DNA of 39,004 nucleotides, taken from the IMG/VR virus record IMGVR_UViG_3300033153_008390, positions 1 through 39,004 of that record. One strand, 5' to 3'. Within the stretch, counting starts at the first letter, position 1. The number at the start of each line of letters is the position of its first letter. The stretch is from a virus. The notes under the pieces were generated by a model, which saw only the letters and a list, made by a program, of their open reading frames with translations, was not told the DNA's origin and searched no databases. Shown here piece after piece: positions 3,402-39,004 of the stretch. Position numbers and translations under genes: made by a program.

Positions 3402-3666
3402 CTTCTATTTGTTTTTTAAAATAATCTTTCCAGTATTTTTCTCTGTTATTATTAGTTTTTTGTACCACTCTTGGTTCTGGCATACTTCCATTCATTATTT
3501 TCCTAGATGGTAATTTCCCTATTTCTAGTATCTGATTATATGTATATCAAGCATTGTGCCTATTATTAAACCTTTGGTACCCTAATGGATTCTCTGGAGT
3601 TAGTTTTAGATATTCCTCATATAGAGATTGGATAGTCATTTGAACACTTACCCTTGGTTTTCTCAT
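3376..3666 (-). CDS. Hypothetical small basic protein
   Basis: 96 residues if it starts at ATG 3664-3666 (an AGAAGG sits 2 nt upstream), or 87 if it starts at ATG 3637-3639. The product is rich in Asn, Arg and Lys (QRFNNRHNAGYTYNQ, NNNREKYWKDYFKKQ). It overlaps the DUF3310 gene by 74-101 bp in another frame, unusually long for this genome, so the shorter start may be right. No family recognised. Confidence 0.6.
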
Positions 3667-4063
3667 AACCTTCTATAATCTTATTAATATAAAACTGACA
3701 TTTCTTTAAATCTTCGATTCAATTCTTATGCTTATATCTTGTTATGTACTTAACCACATTACCCTCACAGAAACTTAGATCATTACTAATAGAGAAATCA
3801 ATAGGTTCGATTCATCATTTAGTATAATGAGGTGGTGTATTGATGAGATCTTCTTCTTCTATACATTTAGGACAGAAATGAACATCATCAATTATTAAAT
3901 CTAGGTGGTGGTTATGTTTTTCACATACAACACTTATTCAATTCTTTCTTTCTTCAATATCTTCATAAATAGACTTCTCATTAATAAAATTATTAATCCA
4001 CGATACTTTTGCATAAGGACAATCTCTTTTATCAGTTCATAATGCCTTGCATGTTTTACACAT
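3566..4063 (-). CDS. DUF3310 family protein with N-terminal Cys motif
   Basis: 165 residues. The C-terminal half has the DUF3310 signature: NTPPHYTKGGIEPIDF, LSFCEGNVVKYITRYKHKNG, IEDLKKCQFYINKII. This family is common in phage replication regions; its biochemical role is not established. The N-terminus carries CKTCKALGTDKRDCPYAK, and HFCPKC further on, suggesting zinc binding. Gly residues of the signature are mostly TGA. Its last ~100 bases overlap the next gene. Confidence 0.85.
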
Positions 4064-4073
4064 AATCTTTTAT

Positions 4074-5480
4074 TTAAAATTCTAAAGCTATCTCACCTTT
4101 CTTTTTCTTATGTTTATTAACTTCTATTACTTTGATTCAATTCTTAGGAACTCAGTATTCATCCATTATAGCAGATTGTTTCTGGACTCTTTGTTTATCA
4201 AGGATTTTATCATTCCAAACAAATATGTCAGCACCAGTCTTCCCAGGACTTTTCCTTAAGGATCTTCATATACTCTGAATCACTGTATTCTCAAATTTAA
4301 TAGCACTGAATATAAACACACAATCTATAACTGGGTAGTCAAACCCTACAGAACATTTCTTAATAGATCAGATAATTATAGTAGGTTTATCACTCACAAG
4401 GGCTTCTTCTAATAAGACTTTGTCATCCGAAATCTTCGTCTCGCCAGTGATTGTAATTATATCATAATCATCATATATAGAGAAGTAGTCTTCCCAGAGT
4501 TGGATTTCTGAAATCCTATCACATAGTATTAATGAACATTGTTTTGACAGGTTTTGAACAACAGCTTTCCTTTGTTCAGCAATTCTATGTTTATCTTCTC
4601 ACATATTTCATCTCAATTCAGCATAATGCTCAAACTCATAGATCTTTTTCATATAAGATTCTCATGATTCCTCATCATTATATAAGAATTCAGCATCTTC
4701 GTTATGTTGGTAATTATAGAAAGTAAACGATGGAATAAAATCATATTCCTTTTTAATCTCTATAACCTTACCAAAGTATTTCTCCAGATCTTTCTCATCT
4801 AAATCAACAGTACTTGGAGTTGCAGAGAGTCCATATAAGTAAACATCTCTATTCTTAAATGCAACATTGAATTTATCTCTGAATTTCTTACTGAATCATT
4901 GATGGCATTCATCTATAATAACAGAATCAAAATCAGATAATAATTCATCTGGACAAGTTAAGAATGAACTTTTAGTCATTATAGTTACGAAGTCTATATT
5001 CTTTTTCCCATCTCAGTATTGAGCTGGTGTAAAGTTAGTCATAGAGGCCATCTTATCCATCATCTCCTGCATTAGTTTCTTATTAGTTACTAATACTAAG
5101 GTTGTACATTGTAAGTACTCTATGATGTCCATTACGATATGAGTCTTCCCCATACCAGTCTTCGCTTTAATAATTCCACATCTATAATTATAGGCTTCAT
5201 TCCTTTTTTTAATGATTCTAAGGATATTCTCTTGAAATGATATATTCTCCGCAAACCTTGCTTTAATCTCATCGGGAATAACATTCTGTTTAAATCATAT
5301 TGGAGTTCATACCGTATAAGGAAATCTTTCCAGTTTCATTATATCTTTATACATAGGGGGAAGACAGTCTCTAGTAAAAAACTTATGTTTCTTATTTACC
5401 ATCTTCTGCATATAGAACGAAAACTCCTTCTTCTCAATAGTAAAGAACTCCTTTATTTGTTTAAGTTGGTCTTTGTTCAT
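4074..5480 (-). CDS. Superfamily 2 DNA helicase (DEAD/DEAH-like)
   Basis: 468 residues. Walker A is GMGKTH near residue 107, motif II is IIDECHQW (DECH) near 188, motif III is LSATPS near 215, and motif VI is QSIGRSLRKSPGKTG near 400. This is a two-domain RecA-like SF2 helicase resembling phage UvsW/restriction-subunit-type enzymes that remodel forks or unwind branched DNA with ATP. It lies between primase and recombination genes. It contains few TGA codons before residue 60, and several after. Start ATG 5478-5480. Confidence 0.9.
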
Positions 5481-6194: not shown

Positions 6195-6224
6195 AAAAAA
6201 TAAAGCTAGGATATACCACCTAGC
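6195..6224 (-). terminator. Rho-independent terminator at the primase stop codon
   Basis: On the minus strand GCTAGG (6224-6219) pairs with CCTAGC (6210-6205) around an 8-nt loop and is followed by TTTATTTTTT. The TAG stop codon of the primase is inside the 5' arm of the stem. Confidence 0.85.
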
Positions 6225-8523
6225 ATGGTAGTTCGTTCTCAGTAAATTCTCAGTGTGTACCTTCTGGCATATTTAACATCTGGTCATCATTCTTATTGAT
6301 ATAGTAACCTCTGATAGTTTTACCCCTTATTCTCATTCTTTTCTTCTCATACCTATGGCTTAATCATAGATCAAAATTAGATTGTTTATATTTTATATCG
6401 AAAGAGTCTTCGCCAATATCAGTACAATATAAGTCTAATAAATAATTCTTCTCAATGTTTGTAATCTTATATACATGAGGGTATTTATTCTCAACCCATT
6501 CAAAGAATAGATTAGCAGAACCTTCACAGTTTTCTTCTAATTGATTCTTCTCAGCATTATCCAAAGCCTCCAATTGTGTCAAATAAGGAATTTCAGGGTA
6601 TGTTTCATATAGCCATGAGATATATTGTTTAATTACTTTTTTATCAGTAAGTGTTTCCTTATTTATTACAGATCATAGAGGTCATAAAGAATTCCCAGTT
6701 TTAATAATTGTAAAACGTCTATTCCCACTATGTTTACTATCCAACTGAATAGGTACAGCATGATTACTACTTAAATGAAACCGTGCAATATTATCAACCT
6801 CACGAACATCTCTATTCTTTTGATTCACACTAATAGTAGGTTCTCATACAAATGATTTGATCCTATCTAGTATCTTTTTATCGTTATGTTTATTACCAGA
6901 TGACACCTCTTTAAATTCAACAATTAGTTTATTTCAACTATAACTATCAAATGAACTTTCCAAATCCTTTTGTCCTAGTCCTACCTGAGTATTCACAGCA
7001 CCAAAGATTTTAGATAGTAAGTTCAAGAATGTCCCCTTACCAGATCATCCACTTCAATACAGAATCAAAGCTGGTAAATTAACATCATTCAAATGAGTTA
7101 ACTTATATAAGATTGATTGGTGTATCCATTTTGCATTCTTTTTCTTGTTACCTGATATATTAAGAATTAGTTTCTCTATATTTGGATGTAGGATAGGTTC
7201 TTCTTCTCAACCATGTGAAACAATTAATGATTCATCAAGTGTATTATAGAAACCTTTTTTACCTCAAGCTTTGTAACATAAGTCTTCGTATTGTGGTATA
7301 CTTCCACCCTGAACACATTGGAATAATTCCTTCTTTGTCATTCATAACGAACTTGCTACATTATCTGTTTTTTGGTATCTTTTATATTTAGTGTCATAGT
7401 ATTCTAAGTATTTATCTAACATGATAAATCTTTTATCTTGTTTCACATTATCTTCTCATACCACTTTTGTTTCACTGAATATCTTGTCCCACTTAACTTT
7501 TGTATCGTATCCTACTTTATAGAAGTCATTCACATCACTTAGTTTTTTCCCGTTTCTATCTTCTCTAATTGGATAGTCTATAGTATGAATAGGTCTTCAC
7601 ATGGTTTCAGCAAGTGCTAACTTACCACTTTCTCATGCTAAGTCGTTGTCATATAAACATATAACTTTCTCTACATCATATAATAATGATTTCAAGTAAC
7701 TACGTCCTGATTGTACTCAACCACAATTAGATATAATTCCTTTGTATCACATAATAGAAAGTATAATCCCGTCCATTTCTCATTCCACAACAATTGAAGT
7801 CTTTGGATTTATTGAATCATACATTAACCCAGTCTTTCCAACAGCAAGGCTTTTCTTTCCTCTGATTGTCTTTCAATCTTTCCTTCTTAGTTTCAGTCCT
7901 ATTAGGTTCTTAGACCCGTCATAACAAGGGAAAAGGAATACTGGCACAGTCTTTGGATTATCTCATTCTTTATTTATCCATTTATCATTATCATCTTTAG
8001 AAGTTGGATATTCCGTACAGAAGTAATTATCATAGTATCCAATATCCTTAAAGACTTCGCCTATCTTATTGATACTCTTACTTATAAAATCAGATGATAC
8101 TCATCTACTTAGTAGTAGCGAAGATATTTCTTTTTTATATCCTCATAATTTAAGAGAGTCAAATTGTTCTAGTAATTCAGTTCAACTTAATGATTTAACA
8201 AACTCTTTCTTTTGATCTGGAGCTTCTACTAATCCTTTATCTATGAACCATTTAACTGTCATTGCTTTCCCTACTGTTGACTGAGTGTCTTGTTTGAGTA
8301 AATATCTTCCGATGAAATCAAAAGGTCCTCACTCAACTCCATCTCAACCGAAGTCTTTGGCAATATTCTTACTTGAACTTACCTTAAAACTATTATTAAG
8401 AGTTCCATCGTCTTTTAATAGAGTATAAGTATGTGGCTGTCATGAGTCTTTCTTATATGAGATTCATGCAGCATCAAGTACTGTCAGAATTTCAAGGTCT
8501 TTTATTTTGTCAAAAATATCCAT
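6220..8523 (-). CDS. DNA primase-helicase (toprim domain plus D5-like SF3 helicase)
   Basis: 767 residues. The N-terminal third is followed by a toprim domain: IVVEGEMDGIILS near residue 240 (catalytic Glu) and VICLYDNDLAGE about 50 residues later (Asp-x-Asp). The C-terminal part is an SF3/D5-type ATPase: Walker A YGSGGSGKGT near residue 489, FKEVSSGNKHNDKK, and RFHLSSNHAVP (sensor-like Asn). It would prime and unwind at the origin; no replicative polymerase was recognised, so the host's is presumably used. Gly codons are mostly TGA, including inside Walker A. Start ATG 8521-8523; a terminator overlaps its stop codon. Confidence 0.92.
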
Positions 8524-8536
8524 GTTCCCAAGTTAG

Positions 8537-8623
8537 TTATTTAAGTATTTTATTTTTATTTAATAGATCAATGTAATTCGTAATAGACGCTTTGCTAATC
8601 TTATTATTAGGAACTACATTCAT
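8537..8623 (-). CDS. Possible 28-residue HTH-like peptide or gene remnant
   Basis: MNVVPNNKISKASITNYIDL ... LLNKNKILK, ending TAA 13 bp before the primase start. The pattern ISKASITNYIDLLNKNKI resembles a helix-turn-helix/winged-helix segment, but the rest of such a domain is missing. It may be a leader peptide or a remnant. Confidence 0.35.
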   Translation of the reverse strand: MNVVPNNKISKASITNYIDLLNKNKILK

Positions 8624-8634
8624 TTATTAAATTA

Positions 8635-8708
8635 TGGTTCTCAGTTATGGGATCGAACCATAATTGACAGAGTCAAAGTCTGTAGTCCTACCATTAGACG
8701 AACTGAGA
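8635..8708 (-). tRNA. tRNA-Gln (anticodon UUG), CCA encoded
   Basis: 74 nt. Acceptor TCTCAGT pairs with ACTGAGA; U8; D-arm GTC/GAC with GG in the loop; anticodon stem ACAGA/TCTGT with loop CTTTGAC giving anticodon TTG; T-arm TATGG-TTCGATC-CCATA; discriminator A and CCA are in the DNA. It reads CAA, the dominant Gln codon of this genome. Confidence 0.93.
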
Positions 8709-8715
8709 ATATAGA

Positions 8716-8840
8716 GACCGAGACAAGGATTTGCACCTTGTAAGCTAATCGTCTTTATAGCCACTTACATTTTCCCACGATTCAAAGGAGGTTATCGAGA
8801 CCCCAAATCATTGTGCGTCTACCTATTCCGCCACTCGGTC
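8716..8840 (-). tRNA. tRNA-Leu-like RNA with a ~40-nt surplus; unresolved
   Basis: 125 nt on the minus strand. Acceptor arms GACCGAG/CTCGGTC pair perfectly, followed by TGGCGGAATAGGTAGACGCA, which is the tRNA-Leu D-arm almost to the base, and a T-arm-like hairpin ACAAGG-TGCAAAT-CCTTGT. Between them are ~70 nt instead of ~40, containing ATGATT/AATCGT and GTAAG...CTTAC pairings. A normal anticodon stem cannot be placed without removing an insert. The T stem is one pair too long and no CCA is encoded. It may be an interrupted tRNA, a degenerate one, or a tRNA mimic. Confidence 0.5.
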
Positions 8841-8844
8841 ATAA

Positions 8845-8923
8845 TGTATACTGGATTTATCTAATTTAATTGATTAAATATATTACCTTATAGGTAAAAA
8901 CATAGTCAAACCTCCAGTATACA
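8845..8923 (-). ncRNA. Branched structured RNA element closed by an 11-bp stem
   Basis: TGTATACTGGA (minus, 8923-8913) pairs perfectly with TCCAGTATACA (8855-8845). Inside are two hairpins, TTACC-tataa-GGTAA and ATTTAA-TCAA-TTAAAT, giving a three-way junction 79 nt long. It lies 4 nt upstream of the tRNA-Leu-like RNA. No known class recognised. Confidence 0.5.
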
Positions 8924-8936
8924 ATAGTATTTATTT

Positions 8937-8984
8937 TCCCCCTTTTTATCCTCCATTCACAAAGGCTTATTGTCATCAAGGGGA
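8937..8984 (-). ncRNA. Hairpin element upstream of the RNA block
   Basis: On the minus strand CCCCTT (8983-8978) pairs with AAGGGG (8944-8939), with an inner CCTTT/GGAGG helix. The element starts 7 nt after the stop of the 53-residue gene 8992-9153 and lacks a clear U-run, though AAAATAAAT follows. It could be a processing stem or attenuator. Confidence 0.4.
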
Positions 8985-8991
8985 GATTGTT

Positions 8992-9153
8992 TTATTTAAT
9001 TTTAATTTCTTCACAAAATTCTTTCATTTTTTTCTCACAGAATAATTCCATTTCAATGATTTTATCTTTTACAAATTCTTCCATATGTTTTTCTTGTTCT
9101 ATTCTGAAATCTTTCATATCAGAGTACGGATTATGTCCTGCCATTTTTGTCAT
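8992..9153 (-). CDS. Hypothetical small helical protein
   Basis: 53 residues, MTKMAGHNPYSDMKDFRIEQ, then an almost continuous charged helix (EKHMEEFVKDKIIEMELFCEKK is split here only by position, ending EEIKIK). It contains two Cys and no TGA. A pseudoknot-like RNA element lies directly upstream (9177-9242). No family recognised. Confidence 0.7.
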   Translation of the reverse strand: MTKMAGHNPYSDMKDFRIEQEKHMEEFVKDKIIEMELFCEKKMKEFCEEIKIK

Positions 9154-9176
9154 AATTTAATTCGTTTATAAATAAA

Positions 9177-9242
9177 ATGTCTCCTATAAGTAACTTGGGA
9201 TGAAAACTTATAAAAGACATACTATCTATAAAACCCCAAGTT
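9177..9242 (-). promoter_or_regulatory. Putative RNA pseudoknot leader
   Basis: On the minus strand a stem ATGTCT-tt-TATAAGT (9220-9206) pairs with ACTTATA-gg-AGACAT (9191-9177), 13 bp with one internal loop. Its 14-nt loop contains CCCAAGTT (9199-9192), which is complementary over 8 bp to AACTTGGG (9242-9235) upstream. Together this is an H-type pseudoknot, 23 nt before the start of gene 8992-9153. Confidence 0.55.
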
Positions 9243-9258
9243 TTGTTCTATAGATCTA

Positions 9259-9420
9259 TTATAATCACAGTCTCTTCTTTCTATGGTAGTATCACTGTTT
9301 CGTTATTCAGAAAGCTTCCCAAGTCTTAATCTTACTATCCTGCATAACCTTTATTTGCTCGTCAATCATTAATATCTGATTGTTCAAAGTCTCAAACTCC
9401 GTATCTGTTAATATAGCCAT
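9259..9420 (-). CDS. Hypothetical small protein, first gene of the leftward unit
   Basis: 53 residues: MAILTDTEFETLNNQILMID, a helix, then KTWEAFGITKQGYYHRKKRLGL, which looks like the recognition half of a small helix-turn-helix with a basic end. It begins 30 bp downstream of the leftward promoter -10 box at 9450-9477. An early regulator is plausible but unproven. Confidence 0.65.
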
Positions 9421-9449
9421 ATGTTTTTTATCGGTTAAGTTATAGAAGC

Positions 9450-9477
9450 ATTGTATTGATTATTACTTGAAAGTCAA
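9450..9477 (-). promoter_or_regulatory. Leftward promoter
   Basis: Minus strand TTGACT (9477-9472), 16-nt spacer, TACAAT (9455-9450). It matches the SSB promoter at 2298-2325 in nearly every position, including the ACTTtcAAGT inverted repeat, and drives the primase/helicase side. Confidence 0.8.
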
Positions 9478-9595
9478 AAGATAATATTAGTTTCCAGTAA
9501 AAAAGAATAGAAGATACTTATATATAATAGGTTATAAAATTCCATATATAAGGTAGAAGTATTTTATTAAATATTAAAAAGTATTAAAAGAATAC

Positions 9596-9629
9596 AAAAA
9601 GTATTAAAAAGATTTGACTTTGAAGTAAA
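9596..9629 (+). repeat. 34-bp promoter repeat, copy 2
   Basis: Identical to the minus strand of 2310-2343. It contains the -35 box and its palindrome. Confidence 0.9.
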
Positions 9630-9642
9630 GTTGTGATATACT
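9614..9642 (+). promoter_or_regulatory. Rightward promoter for the methyltransferase operon
   Basis: TTGACT (9614-9619), 17-nt spacer, TATACT (9637-9642), with ACTTtgAAGT overlapping the -35 side. About 125 bp of leader precede the first start codon. Confidence 0.8.
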
Positions 9643-9767
9643 TGATTTGTCAGTTAGGGAATGACTCATAATAAATACTCTAAATATATTGCATATATAA
9701 ACTGAGTCTTTTATAGAAGGGGTCTTCGCCTGGCTAACATAATATACTTATTAATAACTTGGGAATT

Positions 9768-10733
9768 ATGAAATTAATAAATTGAGAATGTTTAAAAGAA
9801 ATGGATAAGTTAATTAAACAATGAGTCAAGGTTGATGCAATTATTACAGACCCTCCATATTGAACAATTAAATGAATAGCCTCAACTGAATGAATTACTC
9901 ATTGAATGAAATGAAAAAATAAATGGGATACAGAAGTAAATCCATCTGATATTTTTAATAGAGCAAATAAATTGTTGAGAAAAAATTGAAAACTGATCTT
10001 ATTTTCTCAAGAACCATATACAAGTAAATTAATAATTGAAGCAATATCTAATATTCCATTTAATTATAGAATTATTTGGAAAAAAGATCATTTTGCAAAT
10101 AGCTTAATAGCAAAAAAAGCACCTGTTATATATACAGAAGATATATTAGTATTTAGTAAATCTCATAATAAACACGATTTTGAATGATTCCATCCATTGA
10201 GATTATATTTTGAAAAAATTATATCTTTTGTAGGACTAGATAAAAAATCAATAGTTAATAAAATATGACAGAGGGTAGATCATACATTAAGGGTAAACTC
10301 CTCTCAATTTGCATTATGCACAGAAGAAACATATAATTTATTTATTGATTATTTTGATATAAATAAAATGGATTGATTCAAAAGCTTTAATGAATTGTTC
10401 GTAATAAATAAGGGATACAGGGATGATTTAATATTTAAGATGAATAAAGAATTCCCTTCTGTATTTAATCTTCCAGAATGAAAAAAATATAAATCAAACG
10501 TGCTAGAATATAAAAAAGATTATTCTTGATTACATCCTACTCAAAAACCAGTTGCATTAATGGAGGATTTAGTAAAAACCTATACAAATGAATGAGAAAC
10601 AGTATTAGATTTTACAATGTGAAGCTGAACAACGTGAGTAGCTTGTAAAAATACAAATAGAGATTTTATAGGAATTGAGTTAGATGAAAAGTATTTTAAT
10701 ATAGCTAAAGATAGAATAAATGAATCAAACTAA
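9768..10733 (+). CDS. DNA adenine/cytosine-N methyltransferase (beta-class)
   Basis: 321 residues. Catalytic motif DPPYGTIKG lies at residues 28-36 and the S-adenosylmethionine site FTMGSGTTGVACK near residue 281, followed by DFIGIELDEKYFNIAKDRI. DPPY before FxGxG is the beta-class order of amino-methyltransferases. GLHPTQKPVALMEDLV is the conserved stretch before the SAM site. Four of the motif Gly residues are TGA, which fixes the code. It probably protects phage DNA from restriction or marks it; no matching restriction enzyme is nearby. The central part (about residues 150-240) looks like target recognition. Confidence 0.93.
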
Positions 10734-12200: not shown

Positions 12201-12379
12201 ACATTTTTTCTTCGTGGCATTATTGAGAGCCTACGAAAAATAAGTGTAGCGAGGTTGGGTGATTGTATTTTGTCAATAGAAGAGTAGTTTTATGGCTATT
12301 TAGTCATTTTAGGACGGAAACTTGTGAAAAAGTAGTCTTCGCAGGGCTTTTTTGTTGTATAATATAGTTTTATTTTTTT

Positions 12380-12747
12380 TGTGAACACCTTTTTGAGGTT
12401 CGTTGACGGTCTTTTTTTTGACAAATTAATTTTTTATTGTGTTCGTTTTTTTGATATATTTTTTGTGTACACTTTGTGAACACTTCACGGGTCAAAGTGT
12501 TCACAGGACTTTGTTTGACTATAGTCGGATAAATCGAAGTGGTGTGAACAGCGTGAACAGCAAAATCACACTTTGAATTGTACTATATAAAGTTACTATA
12601 TAAAGTATAGTAATATGGTGTTTTGACTAAGGTAATATTATATTAAGTAACTATAAAAGTATAAAATAGCTTAGTAAAGCCAATTTATTAAAAAAAAGTG
12701 AACAAAAGCCTTAATTTTGTGAACACAATTCAATGTTTTGTGTACAC
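12380..12747. repeat. Repeated TGTGWACAC boxes (iteron-like)
   Basis: TGTGAACAC occurs at 12380-12388, 12475-12483 and 12718-12726, its complement GTGTTCACA at 12497-12505, and the palindromic variant TGTGTACAC at 12464-12472 and 12739-12747. Degenerate GTGTGAACA and GCGTGAACA lie at 12542-12560. Boxes 12475-12483 and 12497-12505 form an inverted pair. They are likely binding sites for an initiator or regulator. Confidence 0.7.
12581..12606 (+). repeat. Two perfect tandem AT-rich 13-mers
   Basis: TACTATATAAAGT is repeated exactly at 12581-12593 and 12594-12606, next to the TGTGWACAC boxes. AT-rich 13-mers next to iterons are typical of DNA-unwinding elements in replication origins. Confidence 0.75.
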
Positions 12748-12902
12748 AATTAAAGTACAACCTTTTAATTCATATATGAATATATATAAAGTCCTGCGAA
12801 GACTTCAACACACATAGCAAAATCTACATTATCACATCGTTTCTAAGAGACTTTAACCTTAAATAGGATACAATGTAAGCAAACGTATCTAACCAACTAC
12901 AT

Positions 12903-12922
12903 CACATAACAGAAGTTATGTG
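12903..12922 (+). other. Perfect 8-bp hairpin with AGAA tetraloop
   Basis: CACATAAC (12903-12910) and GTTATGTG (12915-12922) enclose AGAA. No T-run follows, so it is not a terminator. It opens the structured, more GC-rich part of the control region. Confidence 0.6.
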
Positions 12923-13014
12923 AACCGCGCATACCTAAGCGACGTAGAGAGGTAGGTTTTTTATAGACATAGTTTTAGCCAGGAAAAGGCGTCGAACCAC
13001 AAGATTTTATATAT

Positions 13015-13090
13015 AGAAGGGGGAATTTCAGAGACCCGGGGAGGGGTGGGCGAATGAAAAATAAAAAAGAAGTAGTATATACCACTCCCG
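13015..13090. other. Candidate cos/packaging site
   Basis: A G-rich block (13033-13052, GACCCGGGGAGGGGTGGGCG) stands out in an otherwise about 30% GC genome, 200 bp upstream of the terminase genes. It is followed by a near-perfect palindrome AGTAGTATATACCACT (13071-13086). Position and composition fit a cohesive-end site recognised by terminase; this is inference. Confidence 0.45.
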
Positions 13091-13115
13091 TATTTTTTGA
13101 AGATTTCACTTTCTA

Positions 13116-13142
13116 TTGACTTTAAAGTAAAAACCTTATAAT
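13116..13142 (+). promoter_or_regulatory. Late-gene promoter
   Basis: TTGACT (13116-13121), 15-nt spacer, TATAAT (13137-13142), with the same ACTTtaAAGT palindrome as the early promoters. It precedes the small terminase gene by about 100 bp. Confidence 0.7.
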
Positions 13143-13158
13143 AACATATATAAAGCCA

Positions 13159-13195
13159 ACCGAAGACTTCTTAAACCGAAGACTTCTTAAACCGA
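13159..13195 (+). repeat. Tandem 16-bp repeats in the late leader
   Basis: ACCGAAGACTTCTTAA occurs twice in tandem (13159-13174, 13175-13190), followed by a partial third copy ACCGAG. Each unit contains GAAGACTTC, an internal palindrome. They lie just downstream of the late promoter. Confidence 0.8.
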
Positions 13196-13249
13196 GGATA
13201 CCCAACAAAGACTTTGACCCCACAAGCCTACTACATAATATACAATCAA

Positions 13250-18888: not shown

Positions 18889-18897
18889 TAACTGACA

Positions 18898-18932
18898 ATT
18901 GCCATAACCAAGATATTCAACGTTGTGGCAAT
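18898..18932 (+). other. Intergenic hairpin before the assembly-protein gene
   Basis: ATTGCCATAAC (18898-18908) pairs with GTTGTGGCAAT (18922-18932), 11 bp with one G-U, loop 13 nt. It has no T-run, so it may be an RNA-processing or stability stem rather than a terminator. Confidence 0.6.
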
Positions 18933-18988
18933 AAATTAGATATTAATTATCTGAGCCTTAAATGGCATTATATACTAACCATATTATT

Positions 18989-19620: not shown

Positions 19621-20790
19621 ATGGCTAATTCAGTTTCTGCTTTAAATAAGCAAAAATATACTAAGCTAGTTCAAGCATTATTAGAAGATACTCTAGTTGC
19701 TATGGATCTAGCTAACACTACTCTAATGGCTGACATGCCAGACGGGAATACTATTAATTTCCCAAGACCAGAATTTCAAAACGTACAATCTTATACTAAG
19801 TATACAGATGTTACAGATCAAGATTTAAATTTCTCTAATGAAACTTTAACAATCAATCAAACACCTATCGTAACTTTCGTTTATGATGATGTTGATAATC
19901 TTGATAATGGATACGACGTTGTTGCTTCTGCTGCTCCTAAAGCTGCATATAGAATCAAACAAGATATTGAAGGTAACTTCTTTAACGAATATTCTAACGC
20001 TAATAGCGCTTCTGCTGCTCCAATCACTTTAACTACTGGTGCTTCTGGTAATACTGTAGAAACTTACGGTAATGCTTATGCACAATTAGTAAATGATGGT
20101 GTTGATAGTTCAAATGTGGTTGCTGTAATTGATCCTTTTCAATTATCTACAATTGGTGTAGCTTCTTTAGGTAATACTTTCAAAGTTGCTGATGCTTCAT
20201 TCAAAAAATGATTCAGAGGTGATTTTCAAAATATGGCTGTTATTGTTTCTACAAACTTAACTGCTGATTACACTTTAGACTTAGCTACTAATCCAACTGC
20301 TACTAATACTGTTACTTTTGGTGGTGTTGTATTTACATTTGTTGCTTCTCCTACTCTTGCTGGTGATGTTGATATTGGTTCTGATGCTAATGAATCTGCA
20401 ACTAACTTAGTTGCTGCAATCAATGGTACAACTCCAGGAACTAAATATGTAGAACTATCTACTACTGATAGAGCTAAAATGGAAGGAATTACTGCAACTG
20501 ATGGAACTGATTTAATTACTATTGAATCTAAAAGAGGTTATAAAACAGCTTCTACTTCTATGACTGCTGCTGCTAATGATTTTCAAGCTGTTACTATTCA
20601 TAATATGATTATGGAAAGAGGAGCTATTAACTTAGTAATGCAAAAAGAAGTATCTCTTAAAGTACAAGATGTTCAAAAACAACTTGGAACAAGATATATG
20701 ACTTGGGCTAGATATGGTCTTAAAACTTTCGCTGAATGAGCTGAAAGAATGTATGACTTACAAATTGTTTCACAAGCTGCAGAAGCTTAG
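19621..20790 (+). CDS. Major capsid protein
   Basis: 389 residues, one continuous protein when TGA (20209-20211 and 20737-20739) is read as Gly. N-terminal helix region ANSVSALNKQKYTKLVQALL, DMPDGNTINFPRPEF, then VTFVYDDVDNLDNGYDVVAS. A central inserted domain, about residues 210-330 (VTFGGVVFTFVASPTLAGDV, TNLVAAING), is of a kind found in many phage coat and tail proteins. The C-terminus contains GTRYMTWARYGLKTFAEGAERMYDL. Only 2 of about 24 Gly codons are TGA, GGT being preferred, unlike the rest of the genome. Hairpins flank the gene on both sides. Confidence 0.88.
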
Positions 20791-20791
20791 G

Positions 20792-20841
20792 TAACAAACA
20801 CAGAGCTTATTATCTATATGATAATAGGTTTCTGTTTGTTA
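20792..20841 (+). terminator. Large hairpin after the capsid gene
   Basis: TAACAAACA (20792-20800) pairs with TGTTTGTTA (20833-20841), and TTATTATC with GATAATAG inside. The stem exceeds 18 bp with small bulges. An ATTTATTAATTTT tail follows, so it can act as a partial terminator or mRNA stabiliser. Confidence 0.7.
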
Positions 20842-20859
20842 TTTATTAATTTTAGAAGT

Positions 20860-38755: not shown

Positions 38756-39004
38756 CTATTTAATTAATTCATATAATCTATTAGCAGTTTTGTCTTTAGT
38801 TTCGTTAAATAAATGGAATTGATGTATATCCTCAACCTTATTTTTCAATACATTATAAGCATATAACTTTCTTTGGTATTTATTTTTTTCACATCTAAAG
38901 TCTTCCTCAGATTCTTTTAATTCATCTTCCGTACATTCTAACGCTTCTAGTAATACTTTTCTTTCTAATAATAAAATCCCAGTAATAACAATTAACACTA
39001 TAAT
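38756..39004 (-). CDS. Small membrane-anchored coiled-coil protein (continues at 1-138)
   Basis: Because 38891-39004 repeats 1-114, this is the same gene as at 1-138 seen from the other side of the cut: residues from about 9 onward and the stop TAG (38756-38758). The full gene is 38890-38756 plus 138-1, 90 residues. A GTG inside this copy would give an 80-residue product, but the ATG-started 90-residue reading across the junction is better. Confidence 0.8.
   Translation of the reverse strand: MIVLIVITGILLLERKVLLEALECTEDELKESEEDFRCEKNKYQRKLYAYNVLKNKVEDIHQFHLFNETKDKTANRLYELIK
38891..39004. repeat. Terminal direct repeat, right copy (circular closure)
   Basis: Identical to 1-114. See the left copy; one of the two should be dropped to obtain the 38,890-bp circle. 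Confidence 0.95.

Follow-up and report, generated by a model that had tools for sequence, protein, structure and literature searches.

A tentative spacer hairpin beside the tRNA unit of a phage that appears to read UGA as glycine

On the minus strand of a virus contig of 39,004 bases (the window, i.e. the whole stretch of DNA analysed here), a 79-nt element closed by a perfect 11-bp inverted repeat is found next to a tRNA-Leu-like RNA and a tRNA-Gln gene. Our tentative reading, based on predicted folding, is that it may be a spacer or leader hairpin that separates the tRNA unit from the upstream mRNA. For now, it counts as one of several hairpins in spacers. The hairpins at gene junctions across the phage group, one of them with covariation, offer the broader lead. 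Should the element serve in processing or protection, it would show how tRNAs are freed from operon mRNAs in phages that have a changed genetic code and infect ultra-small bacteria, a subject on which no data were found.

Phage genome and genetic code

The window carries a 114-bp direct repeat at its ends (1-114 and 38891-39004), which suggests a complete circular or terminally redundant phage genome of about 38.9 kb. Reading frames are open only with UGA as glycine (19 UGA codons in the terminase, 26 in the primase), and the terminase translated in this way contains FGGGARGGKSE. Judged from these reading frames, the phage uses genetic code 25 (UGA=Gly). According to the accessible text of PMC10746230, this code is known from Absconditabacteria, Gracilibacteria and many predicted phages of Absconditabacteria. 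As the assignment starts from the code of the phage, the host is only inferred.

A noncoding region of 882 nt (12368-13249) contains repeated GTGTTCAC/GTGAACAC words, and similar GTGTTCACC repeats occur at about 6500-6680 in L012, a related contig described below. This region is possibly an origin or a regulatory region.

The tRNA block and the leftward operon

The element is part of a leftward series of features:

9450-9477, minus strand: promoter-like TTGACT-16-TACAAT with a match in the corresponding position of L012; putative start of the leftward operon
9259-9420, minus strand: ORF1, 53 aa, homologue of a small ORF beside the primase in L012
9165-9232, minus strand: long hairpin of 68 nt between ORF1 and ORF2, z -5.0
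8992-9153, minus strand: ORF2, 53 aa, no family match found
8842-8926, minus strand: extended closing stem of the element, with arms of 14 nt that contain a single mismatch and come close to the 5′ end of the tRNA-like RNA
8845-8923, minus strand: the element, 79 nt, with closing stem P1 (8913-8923 with 8845-8855), hairpin P2 and weak hairpin P3
8716-8840, minus strand: tRNA-Leu-like RNA, 125 nt, with blastn matches to annotated tRNA-Leu genes of phages
8635-8708, minus strand: tRNA-Gln (TTG), followed by CCA in the sequence; the only Rfam match above threshold here
8558-8632, minus strand: long hairpin with imperfect pairing that separates tRNA-Gln from the primase, z -4.8
6220-8523, minus strand: primase-helicase (Toprim, DUF5906), with its 26 UGA codons read as Gly

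Promoter-like sites are no commoner in the window than in shuffles. All three long spacers of the tRNA block contain strong hairpins, with z values of -5.0, -3.1 and -4.8. The tRNA-Leu-like RNA has an acceptor stem (GACCGAG/CTCGGTC), a T arm with the loop UGCAAAU, and a long variable arm. Its anticodon arm is enlarged by a hairpin extension and contains ACCUCCUUU, CCA is not encoded, and neither ARAGORN nor Rfam calls a tRNA at 8716-8840.

The word AACTTGGG occurs five times in the window (0.56 copies expected; none of 100 shuffles reaches five), and four of the copies are found within 1.2 kb (8527-8534, 9192-9199, 9235-9242 and 9756-9763). Two copies are located directly before the start codons of the primase and of the methylase. 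In the hairpin at 9165-9232, the loop CCCAAGUU is able to pair with AACUUGGG, either with the copy a little upstream of this hairpin or with the one that precedes the primase start; in the latter case, pairing covers 15 nt at 93%. A pseudoknot or translational control is a possible meaning of this complementarity.

Folding of the element

The element is closed by the arms TGTATACTGGA (8845-8855) and TCCAGTATACA (8913-8923), which pair without a mismatch. It is separated by 4 nt from the tRNA-like RNA, which runs from 8840 to 8716 on the minus strand. For the element itself, Rfam returned no family above the gathering threshold and nothing credible at E up to 10. The sequence-only reading, which had described an unclassified element beside the tRNAs with an 11-bp perfect closing stem and this same distance, was correct in so far as a stable stem without a match in Rfam is found there.

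It had also proposed a three-way junction with two inner hairpins, and here the result is mixed. On the minus strand, the strand of the tRNAs, the three-way junction is indeed the minimum-energy fold (-19.6 kcal/mol), but a single-arm alternative is only 0.1 kcal/mol away, and the best fold of the plus strand is a single long hairpin with interruptions instead of a three-way junction. Pairing probabilities in the predicted ensemble are about 1.0 for P1 and 0.72-0.99 for P2 (UUACCU AUA AGGUAA). A three-way junction calls for three helices that are each well formed in this ensemble, and P3 attains only 0.31-0.37. The closing stem and a single inner hairpin are the only robust parts of the predicted fold.

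Compared with shuffled sequences, the minus strand of the element reaches z -3.1 (7 of 1000 shuffles fold as well) and the plus strand z -4.3. When the closing stem is removed, the 57 nt that remain are no more stable than their shuffles (z -0.16). The statistical signal of the element is therefore that of its closing stem.

The element also contains GGAGG and an ATG with 6 codons, which raises the idea of a leader peptide. Its GGAGGUU is complementary to AACCUCC in the tRNA-like RNA; this pairing of only 7 bp was noticed post hoc and is given no weight.

Frequency of comparable repeats

Inverted repeats with perfect arms of 11 bp or more, separated by no more than 70 nt, were counted and compared with order-1 random versions of the whole window. 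Five were observed against 2.6 expected per window; for repeats with at least 4 G/C, the numbers are 2 observed and 0.15 expected. In shuffles of the local spacer (8525-9200), such a repeat arose in 1 of 300 cases. When non-overlapping 79-nt windows from the whole genome are ranked by G+C-corrected fold energy, the element comes about 15th. The closing stem is thus moderately unlikely to have arisen by chance: the claim that it is unlikely by chance holds for the local spacer but not genome-wide.

Exact searches for the stem pattern and for the start of the tRNA-like RNA gave no matches in viral contigs. Blastn against phages and plasmids revealed no similarity to the element, only to tRNA parts and short chance words, and scans of host genomes were empty. 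No site of the intrinsic terminator type, with a G+C-rich hairpin directly followed by a T run, exists in 8500-9800, and for this reason the element was rejected as an intrinsic terminator.

Relatives and the missing block

The primase alone found no relatives when used as query. L012 was detected with a degenerate P-loop pattern and a further contig, L014, through alignment with L012; their primases are about 58% and 39% identical, respectively, to that of the window. Terminase queries retrieved seven related contigs, which start at most about 3.1 kb upstream of the terminase and stop short of the block.

In L012, the homologue of ORF1 (50% identity over 36 aa) is found about 42 bases before the primase and is preceded by a TTTTGACTT..TACAAT motif. 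This contig has the same operon and promoter motif but neither ORF2 nor the element nor either of the tRNAs, and its spacer holds unrelated repeats in place of the element arms. As the block is absent from the syntenic L012, it was either gained in the lineage of the window or lost in L012, inside the leftward operon. The synteny also places the block inside a co-directional operon and makes the minus strand the probable sense strand. No tRNA is present in L014, and the tRNA model gave no match in ten related records, several of them fragments.

L012 also codes for a terminase-like ORF of 520 aa (3404-4966) with a start unlike that of the window terminase, though portal, capsid and primase are close. 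This suggests, on comparison of the sequences, that terminase parts may have been exchanged.

Hairpins at other gene junctions

On the inferred sense strand, strong structure (z below -3) occurs in 4.4% of the noncoding but only 0.5% of the coding 60-nt windows, a difference of about nine times. While noncoding windows make up only 11% of the total, ten of the 30 strongest structure sites are noncoding. Several of the noncoding peaks resemble terminators and have T runs, but this is not so for others, among them the three of the tRNA block.

Two consecutive hairpins (18895-18966) precede a putative scaffold gene at 18962, which has a weak match to head scaffolding proteins. The first of them (near 18896-18930) is kept in the related contigs L005 and L012, with the loop consensus CCNAGANATT. 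Four of its 11 pairs have changed on both sides and all positions remain paired, though this comparison covers only three distinct sequences. Judged from these alignments, it appears to be better supported as a structured RNA than the element at 8845-8923. In the contigs L003 and L004, another long hairpin takes its place ahead of the scaffold gene. The strongest structure of the window is a long hairpin across the capsid stop (20788-20845), and hairpins of differing sequence occur at the same place, the capsid end, in L003, L004 and L005. As differing hairpins are found at shared junctions of the window and its relatives, gene-junction hairpins recur in this phage group.

Proposed role of the element

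We propose, with due reserve, that a polycistronic minus-strand transcript would start from the putative promoter near 9450-9477 and would cover ORF1, ORF2, the element, the tRNA-Leu-like RNA, tRNA-Gln and the primase. In this RNA, the closing helix of 11-13 bp would form 1-4 nt before the 5′ end of the tRNA-like RNA and would bracket the tRNA unit jointly with the hairpin that lies beyond it at 8558-8632. Its likely job would be to keep the tRNA unit apart from the flanking mRNA or to protect it. The helix could act as a processing site for a double-strand-specific nuclease of the RNase III type, or it could be a barrier against exonucleases. Among the features of an RNase III-type intercistronic hairpin, the helix and the co-directional genes are present, and we infer the shared transcript. 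RNase III substrates usually have a longer helix than these 11-13 bp.

Several results are in favour of a spacer hairpin: the fold of the element beats shuffles, synteny with L012 puts the block in a co-directional operon, strong hairpins fill all three spacers of the block in a genome with structure-enriched noncoding windows, and relatives keep hairpins at their junctions despite changed sequence, in one case with covariation. On the other side, no homologue of the element was found and direct signs of selection on it are therefore missing, the fold of the plus strand is slightly better than that of the minus strand, and several other noncoding peaks are terminator-like, unlike the element.

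Alternative explanations

The main rival, which we take seriously even though we consider it rather unlikely, is that an 11-bp inverted repeat arose by chance in AT-rich spacer DNA and has no function of its own. The repeat numbers expected per window (2.6 whatever the composition, 0.15 if at least 4 G/C are required), an inner part that folds like shuffles, the modest genome rank, and the absence of the element from relatives along with the whole block all fit this explanation. What speaks against chance is the rarity of such a repeat in shuffles of the local spacer, and the position of the element in a spacer of a genome with spacers enriched in structure. Less likely, and improbable in our view, is a stable small RNA cut from the tRNA precursor. 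The size of 79 nt, the closing helix and the position directly beside a tRNA and a tRNA-like RNA speak for it; against it, the third arm of the element is weak, its inner part is no more stable than shuffles, and no homologue was found. The discrete three-way-junction RNA species of the sequence-only reading is unsupported for similar reasons, as the block is also absent from the closest syntenic relatives and other spacers of this genome contain hairpins of similar or greater strength. An elaborated version, to which we assign very little probability, has a candidate stable ncRNA co-processed with the aberrant tRNA-Leu-like RNA, in which ACCUCCUUU, a sequence like the 3′ end of 16S rRNA, would pair with GGAGGUU of the element and act on translation in an infection with UGA=Gly.

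The repeat might also act at the DNA level, its arms being two inverted sites of 11-14 bp for a regulator or a replication protein in a divergent region where GC skew changes sign. The cumulative GC skew has its minimum near 9000, each arm contains the palindrome GTATAC, and the arms match equally on both strands. However, arm copies are not above chance (12 copies with no more than 2 mismatches, against 13.9 expected), a result by which the idea that the arms are operators was rejected, L012 has unrelated repeats in its spacer instead, and skew follows gene direction; a DNA-level site is thus quite improbable. A remnant of a decayed tRNA or tRNA-like gene would have similar length and the same place, in a tRNA unit whose tRNA-Leu-like member is itself aberrant. 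The tRNA model does not match the element at E up to 10, neither a T-arm nor a D-arm pattern is present, and the closing stem has 11 bp instead of 7 bp, which makes this the explanation in which we have least belief.

Comparison with known systems

The tRNA cluster of phage T4 codes for stable untranslated RNAs, species C and D, which are likewise structured segments other than tRNAs within a phage tRNA unit. The element is shorter than these, and it is only a candidate for a discrete transcript. The spacer hairpin that we prefer has its counterpart in the RNase III sites of phage T7 early mRNA, which are intercistronic hairpins of a phage operon. In T7 as in the window phage, hairpins lie between co-directional cistrons and in several spacers; compared with the T7 sites, the helix of the element is shorter (11-13 bp), it is found beside tRNAs and in a code-25 phage, and its processing is conjectural. 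Neither the element at 8845-8923 nor its tRNA unit is described in the accessible text of PMC10746230, and the code-25 phages of Absconditabacteria and Gracilibacteria covered there resemble the window phage in their dense in-frame UGA codons, which are read as glycine.
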